Positions 5,066 to 23,178 of a stretch of 23,178 nucleotides of DNA are shown here, piece by piece (position 1 is the first letter of the stretch; each line of letters begins with the position of its first letter). Position numbers and translations under genes: made by a program. Source of the stretch: a virus. The notes under the pieces are model-generated. The model searched no databases. It had not been told where the DNA came from and saw nothing but the letters and a program-made list of their open reading frames with translations. Location: IMG/VR virus record IMGVR_UViG_3300030085_000897, positions 1-23,178 of that record. One strand, given 5' to 3'.

Positions 5066-5078
5066 TATAAATATAATT

Positions 5079-5106
5079 GTAGCCCTGACATAAGGCTACG
5101 TTTTTT
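5079..5106 (+). terminator. Intrinsic terminator ending the first late block
   Basis: Perfect 6-bp stem GTAGCC (5079-5084) / GGCTAC (5094-5099) with a 9-base loop, followed by G and six T (5101-5106). It lies just after the last gene of the first late block. Confidence 0.8.
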
Positions 5107-5164
5107 AAACACGTGTCTTTTTTCTCCTGATAAAAAGTTGAAAGGCACACTCCTTGTTTAGACT

Positions 5165-5215
5165 AGTCCCCTCTCTGTCCTTTCGTTGATTTGCATAACA
5201 GAGGGGGACTTTTTT
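5165..5215 (+). terminator. Second intrinsic terminator, abutting promoter P1
   Basis: Arms AGTCCCC plus TCTCTG (5165-5177) and CAGAG plus GGGGACT (5199-5210) pair with one bulge, and a run of T (5210-5215) follows. The T run ends two bases before the -35 box of promoter P1, so it insulates the next unit from read-through. Confidence 0.75.
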
Positions 5216-5216
5216 A

Positions 5217-5245
5217 TTGACAACACCCAAAATATATGATATTAT
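5217..5245 (+). promoter_or_regulatory. Sigma70-type promoter P1
   Basis: TTGACA (5217-5222), 17-base spacer, TATTAT (5240-5245): a perfect -35 and a one-mismatch -10 at ideal spacing. The start is predicted near 5252, exactly where a long hairpin begins. No convincing ORF lies between it and the terminator at 5431-5467. Confidence 0.8.
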
Positions 5246-5251
5246 ATAAGA

Positions 5252-5467
5252 ACAATCTAAAGTGATTCGTTGCATCCATACTTGTCCAAATCATGGTGAA
5301 TCACTTAGATTGTGCATATGTAGTTTCATATGATATCCCCTTGAAACCCAGATTTGAAAGTGGTCTGGGTTTCGCATAAATAACTATAACTAAACATGTT
5401 CGCATTTTTAGTTTCTCTTTAAAATCGATTCGCCCTGCTATACGAGTGTATGGCGGGGTGTTTTTTT
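5252..5467 (+). ncRNA. Candidate structured noncoding RNA (about 215 nt)
   Basis: The unit is bounded by promoter P1 and an intrinsic terminator. The predicted RNA starts with a 16-bp stem carrying one bulged A: left arm 5252-5268, right arm 5298-5313, 29-base loop. A second perfect 10-bp hairpin, GAAACCCAGA (5343-5352) / TCTGGGTTTC (5364-5373), follows, then the terminator. The only ORF of note (5293-5379, 28 codons) has no ribosome site and overlaps the hairpin arms. No tRNA-like T arm or cloverleaf is visible. A regulatory or decoy RNA is inference. The alternative is a leader that was once upstream of a gene now lost, or a DNA-level operator in the first inverted repeat. Confidence 0.5.
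5431..5467 (+). terminator. Intrinsic terminator closing the P1 unit
   Basis: A stem of up to 13 bp with wobbles, CGCCCTGCTATAC (5431-5443) / GTATGGCGGGGTG (5448-5460), 4-base loop GAGT, followed by seven T (5461-5467). It ends 12 bases before the -35 box of promoter P2. Confidence 0.8.
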
Positions 5468-5479
5468 GTATTTTTTCTA

Positions 5480-5508
5480 TTGACTTGTTTAGCTAAATAA
5501 TGTATAAT
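5480..5508 (+). promoter_or_regulatory. Sigma70-type promoter P2 for the accessory operon
   Basis: TTGACT (5480-5485), 17-base spacer, TATAAT (5503-5508): near-perfect consensus. Predicted start is near 5515. It reads into a leader of about 155 nt and then the six-gene block 5669-7553. Confidence 0.82.
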
Positions 5509-5668
5509 GATAAATAATATGAATACTAGAATCACGCATTCTACTACATGTAACAACATGTAACTATTAACAACATGTAATACATACGTGATTACATGAC
5601 TATACGACATGTGTGCTTCGCACTTTCCTCTTTGAGGAAAACAAGAGAAACTAGAAAGGGAAACGAAC
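5509..5668 (+). promoter_or_regulatory. Repeat-rich, structured 5' leader of the accessory operon
   Basis: Holds three direct copies of ACATGTAA (5546, 5556, 5573), plus related ACATG at 5594-5598 and ACATGT at about 5607. A long-range inverted pair AATCACG (5530-5536) / CGTGATT (5587-5593) encloses the direct repeats. Two short hairpins follow: GTGC/GCAC at 5613-5623 and TTTCCTC/GAGGAAA at 5624-5640. A 14-codon ORF opens at ATG 5519, close to the predicted RNA start and without a ribosome site. The ribosome site of the first gene is the purine run AGAAAGGGAAA at about 5653-5663. The ACATGT repeats could be protein operators or RNA pairing elements; which one cannot be told by eye. Confidence 0.5.
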
Positions 5669-6748: not shown

Positions 6749-7222
6749 ATGGGCAAAGAAAAATGTGGTAGAAAACCAAAAGAATGGACTTTAAAAGATA
6801 TTACAGATAAAGGCAGACCATTCAATGATTGTTTAATATGGACTGGCGGCAAACATTCGCAGTTAGGTTACGGTATGATGCGTTACAAAACTAAAATGCG
6901 TACGGTTCATTCAGTAATAGCAGAAATAAAATATGGAACCAAACCAACCAAATATTCCGGGACTAGAGTATCAAGAACATGCGATGAACCTGCTTGTTGC
7001 AATCCAGAACATATCATTATTGTAGATGCTGGTTCATTACAAAGAGGTAATGCAACAGAACGTGGCAGATTTACAGATGAAGAAGTCATAGAAATAAGAC
7101 GTAGATATGATAACGAATGGTATTGGGGTATTGTTTCAGATATGGCACGTGAGTACTCAGTAACAGGAAATCACATGAGTTCAATTTGTAGAAGATGGAC
7201 ATACAAAAAGGTAGGACAATGA
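6749..7222 (+). CDS. HNH-family endonuclease-like protein with C-terminal HTH
   Basis: The first two thirds resemble the small phage HNH nucleases with pattern WTG..GYG...H...(C)HxCDxPxCxNPxH: here DCLIWTGG (27-34), LGYG (39-42), VHSVIAEIKYG (53-63) and a Cys-rich core CDEPACCNPEHI (78-89). The C-terminal part, GRFTDEEVIEIRRRY plus SDMAREYSVTGNHMSSICR (106-148), looks like the helix-turn-helix that often follows this domain. The position usually held by the general-base His before CDxP is Arg76 (codon 6974-6976), so cleavage activity is doubtful although Cys78, Cys83, Asn85 and His88 remain. Family role: nicking or cutting DNA, often homing. It may instead act as a DNA-binding protein. It is embedded in the accessory operon, overlapping the next gene by four bases. 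Confidence 0.75.
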   Translation: MGKEKCGRKPKEWTLKDITDKGRPFNDCLIWTGGKHSQLGYGMMRYKTKMRTVHSVIAEIKYGTKPTKYSGTRVSRTCDEPACCNPEHIIIVDAGSLQRGNATERGRFTDEEVIEIRRRYDNEWYWGIVSDMAREYSVTGNHMSSICRRWTYKKVGQ

Positions 7223-7579: not shown

Positions 7580-7611
7580 AATTTATCTGTATTACAACAA
7601 GCATAAATACA
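7580..7611 (+). promoter_or_regulatory. Putative phage late promoter, copy 1
   Basis: AATTTATCT (7580-7588) and GCATAAATACA (7601-7611) at a fixed distance. 26 of 32 positions are identical to 16591-16622, which stands in the same place before another structural block. CATAAATA is one base from the T4-type late -10 TATAAATA. There is no sigma70 consensus here. The first codon of the next gene is 36 bases downstream. Confidence 0.65.
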
Positions 7612-15387: not shown

Positions 15388-15528
15388 ATGGCTGAAACTA
15401 CTAATGTTAAACAAAGACCAATACTAGGAGAGCAAACAATGCCTTATCATACAAAACCAAAAACAACTAAAAAGAAAACAACTAAGAAGAAGAAAAAGAA
15501 AACTATGAATAAAAAAAAGAGCTACTAG
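15388..15528 (+). CDS. 46-aa Lys-rich peptide, stop codon inside the terminator loop
   Basis: ATG 15388 starts one base after the MuF stop, with GGAGG at 15377-15381; a shorter start at ATG 15439 also has an AGGAG site and would give 29 residues. The protein is nearly half Lys (KPKTTKKKTTKKKKKKTMNKK). Its TAG (15526-15528) forms the loop of the terminator hairpin, so coding and termination are intertwined. A nucleic-acid-binding or capsid-interior role is a guess from charge. It could also be a simple-sequence by-product of the A-rich terminator region, but two good ribosome sites argue for translation. Confidence 0.5.
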   Translation: MAETTNVKQRPILGEQTMPYHTKPKTTKKKTTKKKKKKTMNKKKSY

Positions 15529-15540
15529 GTAGCTCTTTTT
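15514..15540. terminator. Bidirectional intrinsic terminator between converging genes
   Basis: A perfect 12-bp stem AAAAAGAGCTAC (15514-15525) / GTAGCTCTTTTT (15529-15540) with loop TAG. The A-run on one side (from 15511) and T-run on the other make it a terminator for both the head-gene transcript (+) and the minus-strand cassette. Confidence 0.88.
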
Positions 15541-15552
15541 AGTTTGCGGAAG

Positions 15553-15570
15553 AGACCCTTTGCAGGGTCT
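15553..15570 (-). terminator. Second hairpin after the minus-strand cassette
   Basis: Perfect stem AGACCCT (15553-15559) / AGGGTCT (15564-15570), loop TTGC, eight bases beyond the stop of the 148-aa minus-strand gene. There is no T run on either strand, so it may act with the hairpin at 15514-15540 or stabilise the mRNA end. Confidence 0.45.
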
Positions 15571-15578
15571 AATATTTA

Positions 15579-16025
15579 TTACGCTACCTTCTCTTGTTGT
15601 TCTGTGTATTCCCAATAATCAATACACTTGTTCCAGTCACCGTTATTGATCCTGTGATTTACTTGAATTTTGCTATACTGATCCATATGACCACAAGTTT
15701 CATCATCAATTTCACAATCTAAATTCATCAATGTGTCATATACTTTATTGATTAGTTTTTCTGTGCCATAGTTTTCACTGACCAAGTATCTCAAACCCAT
15801 ATCAGCCTCACCGCTCAGTGAAATCTTTTCTTCACCTTCAAATTGACAGCCATCAACCATAACAACCTGTCTTGGCATAATTTTTGCTTTTGCTAATTTG
15901 GCAAGAGCCACAGCACAGTCTATAGAACCGCCAAGTCCTCTAAAAAACACACTGATATCAACAGTATCAACTTTACCGTTTTCTGGGCTTATATACCACT
16001 CATGTCCTAAATCATATTTGTTCAT
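15579..16025 (-). CDS. Unrecognised 148-aa protein of the minus-strand cassette
   Basis: ATG at 16025 (minus strand), with AAGGAG seven bases upstream. Acidic, soluble, 148 residues. Visible segments are HEWYISPENGKVDTVDISVF, a Gly-rich FRGLGGSIDCAVALAKLAKAKI, MPRQVVMVDGCQFEGEEKIS and a Cys-containing NLDCEIDDETCGHMD. Five Cys are scattered, without a clear zinc motif. No membrane segment or signal peptide. It is driven by its own sigma70 promoter lying in the 3' end of the 77-aa gene before it. Opposite orientation to the surrounding head genes marks it as a moron-type cargo gene. Function unknown; counter-defence or host takeover is inference from context only. Confidence 0.7.
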   Translation of the reverse strand: MNKYDLGHEWYISPENGKVDTVDISVFFRGLGGSIDCAVALAKLAKAKIMPRQVVMVDGCQFEGEEKISLSGEADMGLRYLVSENYGTEKLINKVYDTLMNLDCEIDDETCGHMDQYSKIQVNHRINNGDWNKCIDYWEYTEQQEKVA

Positions 16026-16057
16026 TTTATTACTCCTTGTTTTCTGATTATGTAATT

Positions 16058-16085
16058 ACTATAACACGATTCGTTATTTTGTCAA
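16058..16085 (-). promoter_or_regulatory. Sigma70 promoter for the 148-aa minus-strand gene
   Basis: On the minus strand: TTGACA (16085-16080), 16-base spacer, TATAGT (16063-16058). GAATC lies 7 bases after the -35. The stretch 16030-16085, through the AAGGAGTAA site, matches 16308-16363 at about 45 of 56 positions by eye count, so the two promoters are duplicates. Confidence 0.78.
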
Positions 16086-16301
16086 GTTTTCAACAAGATT
16101 ATCATCTTCATCATAAAAGTCAGGTGATTCAACTTCATTCATGCTGTTTGTGTCATAGTCAAACCATTGACCCTCAAGTTCATAGTTGTTGTGTAATTCA
16201 AGAATTTTAGCATTTGCTTCTTCTTGTGAATTTGCTTCAATCTCAAAATGTTGTTTAACAACAACAGTTCGCCAACCTTCAAATGTGTATTTTTTTGACA
16301 T
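16074..16301 (-). CDS. 75-aa acidic DpnD/PcfM-like protein
   Basis: I choose ATG 16301 (MSKKYTF), nine bases after AAGGAG, over ATG 16307 (MIMSKK), only three bases after it; the latter adds two residues. The pattern KYTFEGWRTVVVKQHFEIEA, then NSQEEANAKILELH, resembles the beta-hairpin plus helix of DpnD/PcfM-like proteins (Pfam PF14207, from memory), small proteins of phages and conjugative elements with no firm function. The C-terminal half is strongly acidic (VESPDFYDEDDN), giving a net charge near -12. Its promoter contains the perfect inverted-repeat operator, so it is probably tightly regulated. DNA mimicry is possible from the charge but is inference. Confidence 0.65.
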   Translation of the reverse strand: MSKKYTFEGWRTVVVKQHFEIEANSQEEANAKILELHNNYELEGQWFDYDTNSMNEVESPDFYDEDDNLVENLTK

Positions 16302-16323
16302 AATCATTTACTCCTTGTTTTTT

Positions 16324-16363
16324 GATTACAGAATCAATATAACATGATTCTGTAATCTGTCAA
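16324..16363 (-). promoter_or_regulatory. Sigma70 promoter with perfect 12-bp inverted-repeat operator
   Basis: Minus strand: TTGACA (16363-16358), 16-base spacer, TATATT (16341-16336). A perfect palindrome, GATTACAGAATC (16324-16335) and GATTCTGTAATC (16346-16357), 10 bases apart, covers the spacer, flanks the -10 and runs into the transcribed start. Half-site centres are 22 bp apart, two helical turns, which fits a dimeric repressor blocking RNA polymerase. Confidence 0.82.
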
Positions 16364-16367
16364 GTTT

Positions 16368-16520
16368 TTAATTGTATGCAGAATGCCAGTTATTGATTAT
16401 CTGCATAGTTGCTGGACTTGAAAGCACATCTACTAAGCAGAATTCAATTTCTCCTCGCATTTCATAGCACCAATTTACCAAATTTACCAAAGTTTCTTCT
16501 GTTATTGTTTCATAAGTCAT
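16368..16520 (-). CDS. 50-aa unrecognised protein, first gene of the minus-strand cassette
   Basis: I place the start at ATG 16520, eight bases after AAAAGGAG, not at 16652: the longer frame would run through a clear sigma70 promoter (16551-16579) and the ribosome site. The 50 residues are MTYETITEETLVNLVNWCYE, then RGEIEFCLVDVL and a polar end. The composition is acidic with two Cys and a likely helix-strand-helix layout. It ends (TAA 16368-16370) five bases before the -35 box of the next gene's promoter. No family recognised; its size and regulated setting fit a small host-interaction protein, which is inference. Confidence 0.55.
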   Translation of the reverse strand: MTYETITEETLVNLVNWCYEMRGEIEFCLVDVLSSPATMQIINNWHSAYN

Positions 16521-16550: not shown

Positions 16551-16579
16551 TTTATAGCGGTGATTCGTCAAATAGTCAA
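16551..16579 (-). promoter_or_regulatory. Sigma70 promoter for the 50-aa minus-strand gene
   Basis: Minus strand: TTGACT (16579-16574), 17-base spacer, TATAAA (16556-16551). GAATC (16566-16562) is again 7 bases after the -35, as in the other two promoters of the cassette. It lies back to back with the late-promoter element at 16591-16622 on the plus strand. Confidence 0.75.
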
Positions 16580-16590
16580 TAGTTTGACCC

Positions 16591-16622
16591 AATTTATCTT
16601 CCAAACAAAAAGCATAAATACA
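16591..16622 (+). promoter_or_regulatory. Putative phage late promoter, copy 2
   Basis: AATTTATCT (16591-16599) and GCATAAATACA (16612-16622), same spacing and 26/32 identity with 7580-7611. It stands 45 bases before the scaffold gene, the first gene after the minus-strand cassette, and can restart late transcription after the terminator at 15514-15540. Confidence 0.65.
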
Positions 16623-22546: not shown

Positions 22547-23067
22547 GTTCAGAACCAAAAATAGAAGCACAAAAACTTGTTACACAATCTATTGTCCAAC
22601 TTATGGAGTTTGACTTTCGTGCAATAGGCGGAACTGCCAGAGTTTTTCTTGCCAATGAATTAGAAGGTGATGGTGGTAGTGGTAAGCAAATTTTAGACTT
22701 ACAAGGTTGGGATGGTCAAAGTGACTCAACAAATAGACAGTTTCAATACATAGATTTTACTTTAAGTAATCTACGTTCAGACTTGACAGGTCAAGTTTCA
22801 GAACCAACAATATCTATAGCCGCTCATGATTTATGGCAAATATCAGGTTGGTCAAGTGCAACATCAGGATTTGGTATGGTTGATTATCGTGGGTTAAGAG
22901 TAAAAAGAATGAGATTATTTTACGAAACTGATACGCCTATTGATCCTCAAACATACTTTGTTAAATCAGTAGATGAATTATCACCAGAACAAATTGTTTT
23001 TACTCTTACTCCTAGTTTAGGAACAGAGAATGGCAACAAACCAAGTGCCAGAAAGTTGGAGATATAA
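22543..23067 (+). CDS. Minor tail protein, lambda L-like, lacking Fe-S cysteines
   Basis: 174 residues, right after the M-like gene, as in lambda. The start EAQKLVTQSIVQLMEFDFRA and the middle FTLSNLRSDLTGQVSEPTISIA (then RMRLFYETD, EQIVFTLTPSLGTE) match the N-terminal domain of lambda gpL. Lambda gpL is about 232 residues with a C-terminal domain whose cysteines hold an Fe-S cluster; here the protein is shorter and has no Cys at all. So the second domain is missing or replaced. It probably acts at the tail tip beside M. Confidence 0.82.
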   Translation: MSSEPKIEAQKLVTQSIVQLMEFDFRAIGGTARVFLANELEGDGGSGKQILDLQGWDGQSDSTNRQFQYIDFTLSNLRSDLTGQVSEPTISIAAHDLWQISGWSSATSGFGMVDYRGLRVKRMRLFYETDTPIDPQTYFVKSVDELSPEQIVFTLTPSLGTENGNKPSARKLEI

Positions 23068-23068
23068 A

Positions 23069-23178
23069 ATGAAATTTAATTTTAACTTTGACTTAGGACA
23101 ATTTGTAAAAACAAAAGTAGCACAACAAATTCAACAATCACAGATTGGAAACTTTGTTAAACAAAAAGGTGCTCCTGC
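23069..23178 (+). CDS. Start of a further tail gene, cut by the window edge
   Basis: ATG 23069, one base after the previous stop, with GGAG seven bases upstream, and open to the end of the window (36 full codons). The visible start is MKFNFNFDLGQFVKTKVAQQ, then a Gln-rich QIQQSQIG, without a recognised motif. In lambda the position would hold K, but nothing of an NlpC/P60 or JAMM domain is visible yet. Probably another tail-tip or accessory virion gene. Confidence 0.6.
   Translation, partial: MKFNFNFDLGQFVKTKVAQQIQQSQIGNFVKQKGAP

Follow-up and report, generated by a model that had tools for sequence, protein, structure and literature searches.

Flayer and Mulch are virion-encoding satellites of Streptomyces phages, with small genomes that hold terminase, portal, capsid, scaffold and HNH nuclease genes, no replication genes and a large helper (PMC10690885). 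In cluster K mycobacteriophages a short conserved repeat termed SAS/ESAS, partly an inverted repeat, precedes many small genes of different families (PMC3203893). Promoters with an internal GANTC are known from the GcrA/CcrM system of alphaproteobacteria (PMC7987155, PMC3667746, PMC3973325), where GcrA activates promoters bearing methylated YGAKTCG/YGAKTCK sites (PMC7987155), and CcrM has been reported in SAR11 (PMC3973325). T4-type phages combine early promoters with an extended -10 and a distinct late element, which is NATAAATA in the cyanomyovirus S-PM2 (PMC2984593). The phage described here, represented by a 23,178-nucleotide stretch of viral DNA (the window), resembles each of these in part. 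Like Flayer and Mulch it has a small genome with the same virion and HNH nuclease genes and a large candidate helper, and no replication gene was recognised on a map joined from two strains; unlike them it has a larger genome with a full tail module, a variable early array, a promoter module common to the candidate helpers and T4-type late elements, while its candidate helpers are T4-like marine phages and its dependence on them is putative. SAS/ESAS also differs from the repeat of this phage, which is an entire promoter that includes GANTC and stop codons and recurs in unrelated phage types. In contrast to GcrA/CcrM promoters the GANTC promoters here precede phage rather than cell-cycle genes, and methylation and GcrA binding are putative. 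The T4-type signals, finally, occur here in a small phage from a different lineage, in which no late sigma gene was recognised.

Three small genes lie on the minus strand between the MuF and scaffold genes, namely g1 (15579-16025, 148 aa), g2 (16074-16301, 75 aa from the most likely start at ATG 16301, 77 aa if ATG 16307 is used) and g3 (16368-16520, 50 aa), each behind AAGGAG, and we found no further convincing minus-strand gene in the whole window. This cassette is probably a three-gene instance of a hypervariable modular early-gene array of a small marine tailed phage; its anatomy, its conserved module, the variable content of the slot and the occurrence of the module on T4-like contigs are read directly from the DNA. 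g3 is the anchor gene on the scaffold side, and at the other end a Lys-rich 46-aa gene on the plus strand (15388-15528), the final late-operon gene before the array, forms a conserved fixed border of the slot.

None of g1, g2 and g3 matched Pfam, PHROG (E<0.01) or PADLOC, so that all three are unrecognised and not two as the preliminary description had it. Relatives of g1 were identified on four contigs (L001-L004) at 99, 85 and 79 % identity with L004 also at 79 %, while no relatives of g2 were found among viral contigs and the sole similarity to g3 among isolate phages was at chance level. Structure and profile searches, proposed earlier as a check, yielded a fold for g3 only, a predicted three-helix protein for which no structural match was found; the AlphaFold model of g1 (pLDDT 48) was too poor for use and its profile search against PDB was empty. 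No PADLOC (defence) model matched any of the cassettes, and a host-interaction or counter-defence role is putative; Rfam and tRNA searches gave no match, and a single GNAT acetyltransferase was the only array protein with a known function.

The promoters of g1 (16058-16085, minus strand, TTGACA-16-TATAGT, GANTC at 16068-16072) and g2 (16336-16363, minus strand, TTGACA-16-TATATT, GANTC at 16346-16350) each match the consensus at 11/12 positions with a TG preceding the extended -10, and a second GANTC at 16331-16335 gives the g2 module a perfect dyad, ATTACAGAATC..GATTCTGTAAT. The g3 promoter (16551-16579, minus strand, TTGACT-17-TATAAA, GANTC at 16562-16566) was found by eye, the rule of the scan missing this arrangement, and is conserved in relatives. 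As the sigma70 consensus scan alone performed at chance level (9 sites found, 8.8 expected), weight rests on the conservation of the module across relatives. A terminator-like hairpin on both strands with T-runs on either side (15514-15540) closes the array as well as the upstream late operon, and a second hairpin, AGACCCTTTGCAGGGTCT (15553-15570), scored as terminator-like on the plus strand only, lies just inside the first; terminator-like sites numbered 6 against 1.7 expected. Genes, promoters, bidirectional hairpin and CATAAATAC late element all lie where the preliminary description had put them.

We identified 40 unique copies of the junction module in small-phage loci, consisting of an A-rich flank, CTTGACA, approximately 7 bases, GANTC, rTG, TTATAnT, a conserved leader and GGAG. 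GANTC is either GAATC or GATTC and keeps a fixed position, and stops are present in 2 or 3 reading frames of every one of the 40 modules. It is the module that ends the upstream gene, with KT-stop, NLTK-stop or a TAA at the -7 position. In the window g2 terminates with ENLTK-stop within the g1 promoter, its last codons and stop coming from the module. NLTK ends were present in 9/89 unique array proteins and EETA-like ends, which derive from a second junction GGAGACAGCGTAATG, in 22/89. Leader similarity was 0.656 for homologous genes across genomes and 0.685 for different genes within a genome; that the former is not above the latter fits exchangeable leaders, though as a weak indication.

In the small-phage loci GANTC occupies the spacer in 29/33 unique strict TTGACA/-10 promoters, where 0.026 would be expected per spacer. 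A search of whole large contigs with ≤3 mismatches, in which sites were counted by hand, found GANTC kept at 87/90 sites on 19 contigs, 9 of them as GATTC; these contigs overlap, so the 90 sites are not independent, and since they were chosen because they bear the module, the frequency of GANTC promoters on them partly reflects that selection. The promoter ahead of g1 in L003/L004 is without GANTC. TTGACA, an extended -10 and A-rich flanks are enough for strong sigma70 initiation, and the module could accordingly do no more than drive strong constitutive transcription in a shared host, with neither a factor acting at GANTC nor a function in exchange. We hold this for rather doubtful, as the bases of such a spacer should drift and yet GANTC is near-invariant with the middle base alone varying between A and T, and GANTC is under-represented genome-wide (44 against 68 expected in the window, 257 against 425 in the large contigs; 32 against 36 in a T4 stretch). 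A YGAKTCG-like GANTC lies inside the sigma70 promoter, and CGAATCG here reads as CGATTCG on the other strand, in agreement with the GcrA motif YGAKTCG. GANTC may tentatively be regarded as a candidate CcrM/GcrA-responsive host-promoter signal and is offered as a lead only.

Some 20 related marine contigs have a minus-strand array in the same slot, with 1 to ~10 small genes that are mostly of unknown function. Clustering placed 138 array ORFs in 60 families, ~50 of which are credible as array genes. A single gene occupies the slot in L010 and L011 and eight genes the same MuF-array-scaffold slot in L002, while in the more distant phage of L003/L004 g1 is located between portal and TerL. g3 was detected in 15 loci and adjoins the scaffold gene in all near relatives whose contigs show that end, other array content varying; in a more distant relative, G003 (L099), g3 and the array lie at separate sites. 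One array carries two paralogous cassette genes of ~235 aa (L096 1846-2550; L097 14966-15676), which suggests duplication of units. In two cultured pelagiphages portal and a MuF-like gene are separated by one minus-strand gene of unrelated kind, HTVC111P gp32 (L021 4203-4661) and HTVC202P gp29 (L024 4410-4622), so opposite-strand insertions recur in the lineage.

The cassette had been likened to a moron. A classical moron would consist of extra, self-expressed genes inserted in the late region and dispensable for the phage. Its own promoters and terminator and its opposite strand agree with this, as far as sequence features go, and g1 and g2 are missing from most relatives while the slot is empty in HTVC026P and HTVC112P. 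However g3 is constant in the near relatives whose scaffold end can be seen, and so is not extra DNA absent from close relatives, standardised genes number from 1 to 8 or more per slot, most non-structural genes on the genome map belong to the array and no lysogeny genes were seen, which leaves a classical moron unlikely. The conserved promoters, the terminator and the relatives support the accompanying claim that these genes are expressed separately from the late ones: comparison of gene content at the locus found the minus orientation kept and no plus-strand operon, the arrangement that had been named as contrary to that claim.

As an early-gene array, the locus seems to represent the bulk of the phage's early region, because few other non-structural genes are on the map, g3 is constant and the genes are standardised. 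Each transcription unit sits behind a standard junction that provides stop codons, TTGACA, a GANTC spacer, an extended -10, a ribosome binding site and ATG, and host sigma70 RNA polymerase would read the units at once upon infection. Virion genes run the opposite way from two T4-type late-promoter elements, with a late sigma presumably supplied in trans and GANTC possibly read by CcrM/GcrA. Identical junctions may allow units to be exchanged by recombination without boundary design, and the products are possibly host- or helper-takeover factors. For timing, recombinational exchange and protein function alike we infer this scheme from sequence. It leads to the testable claims that early genes can be traded between unrelated phages as standard promoter-gene units and that host DNA methylation may gate the early promoters of ocean phages.

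Both structural operons begin at a T4-type late-promoter-like GCATAAATAC, in the window and in the related 31-kb contig G001 alike; in the window these elements lie on the plus strand, that of tail fibre-TerS-TerL-portal-MuF at 7601-7610 and that of scaffold-MCP-tail at 16612-16621. The scaffold-side element is kept in 12/12 loci with a visible upstream region (the window and 11 others). No sigma70 site was seen before the scaffold operon, and ATAAATA precedes the late operons without a -35. When counts are compared with those for every permutation of its letters, ATAAATA is over-represented in the intergenic DNA of small and large contigs, with the top intergenic-to-coding ratio among the top words in both, and not in HTVC111P. 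No match to a gp55-like sigma was found in the window, G001 or the other small contigs.

We found the exact pattern of the module in 74 viral stretches. In 257 Gb of cellular genomes it was present on two contigs only, from Doudnabacteria and Oscillibacter MAGs, and both matches were dismissed as chance since their flanks do not fit; no full-length match was found among 50,697 isolate phages. Large contigs encoding nrdA/nrdB, ligase and helicase account for many of the viral carriers, and four of these carry gp23 together with a gp55-like late sigma, their gp23 being closest to that of jumbo T4-like phages. These candidate helpers have the same early module, and ATAAATAC ahead of structural genes. 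We rejected the idea of the cassette as DNA belonging to a T4-like helper, the common genes being tail-fibre pieces only. In the large contigs L026-L093 GANTC-bearing early promoters are confined to one strand per contig, and may serve to map the early genes of uncultured jumbo T4-like phages from the sea.

The window and G001 can be joined as maps into one circle of ~27-31 kb. Positions 23030-23176 of the window are identical (100 %) to the start of the 1317-aa tail gene of G001, which runs on via a fibre gene to the genes that open the window; the window breaks in the tail genes, and G001 within the array that is closed in the window. The joined map holds structural genes, among them TerS, TerL, portal, scaffold and MCP for its own capsid and packaging, together with HNH and unknowns. 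Family searches of this two-strain map found no recognisable polymerase, primase, helicase, DnaD, late-sigma, integrase or endolysin gene. Outside the array the non-structural genes form a short patch at ~5.7-7.6 kb of HNH and small ORFs. Besides small tail-adjacent ORFs, those conserved between window and G001 are the HNH endonuclease (6749-7222, 84 %), a 64-aa ORF and g3. Two phages cultured on Pelagibacter, HTVC111P and HTVC026P, possess an early region that includes a DnaD-domain gene; this region is missing from the phage described here, in which TerS alone of the HTVC111P early proteins has a homologue. Among complete relatives that have no annotated replication genes DSL-LC06 is the closest; this metagenome-assembled complete genome (PMC10611076) is a 29.8-kb circle of the same lineage with ATAAATA before scaffold.

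These findings raise the possibility, at somewhat below an even chance, that the phage is a virion-encoding satellite needing a T4-like phage for replication and for a gp55-type sigma at its late promoters, the array serving coexistence with or exploitation of the helper. Such a reading concerns the whole genome and is compatible with a modular early-gene array. Few conserved non-structural genes, a circular map with no recognisable replication, late-sigma or endolysin gene, the missing DnaD-type region, two structural operons starting at the late element and an independent circle likewise lacking annotated replication genes all argue for it, as do candidate helpers that share the early module and ATAAATAC and carry gp23 and a gp55-like sigma. 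Against this, closure joins two strains, with a gap of ~3.6 kb in the phage of the window and an array gap in G001, most relatives are fragments of <13 kb, and replication proteins may be unrecognised or host-supplied. Only one metagenome was noticed as common to small phage and candidate helper, and the genes common to small and large phages are limited to tail-fibre pieces. More tentatively still, the full scenario from sequence would be an ocean lineage related to SAR11 phages that turned satellite, keeping its virion genes and losing replication and late sigma, with a helper sigma reading its T4-type late promoters and a takeover array under the helper's methylation-linked early module. 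Giant T4-like marine phages may then have virion-encoding satellites, a testable claim, and these would belong to a lineage related to cultured SAR11 phages.

A 600-base noncoding region of the window (5066-5668) contains a sigma70-type promoter and structured-RNA-like stretches, and gave no match in Rfam. It is partly conserved in G001 (79-87 %), where some stems differ in sequence with pairing seemingly kept and the loop TTTGAAAGTG is present in both. The 3′ part (5376-5480), from CATAAATAAC to a terminator, has a folding z of -5.2 and also occurs within the array of L002 and L009 at 94 %.
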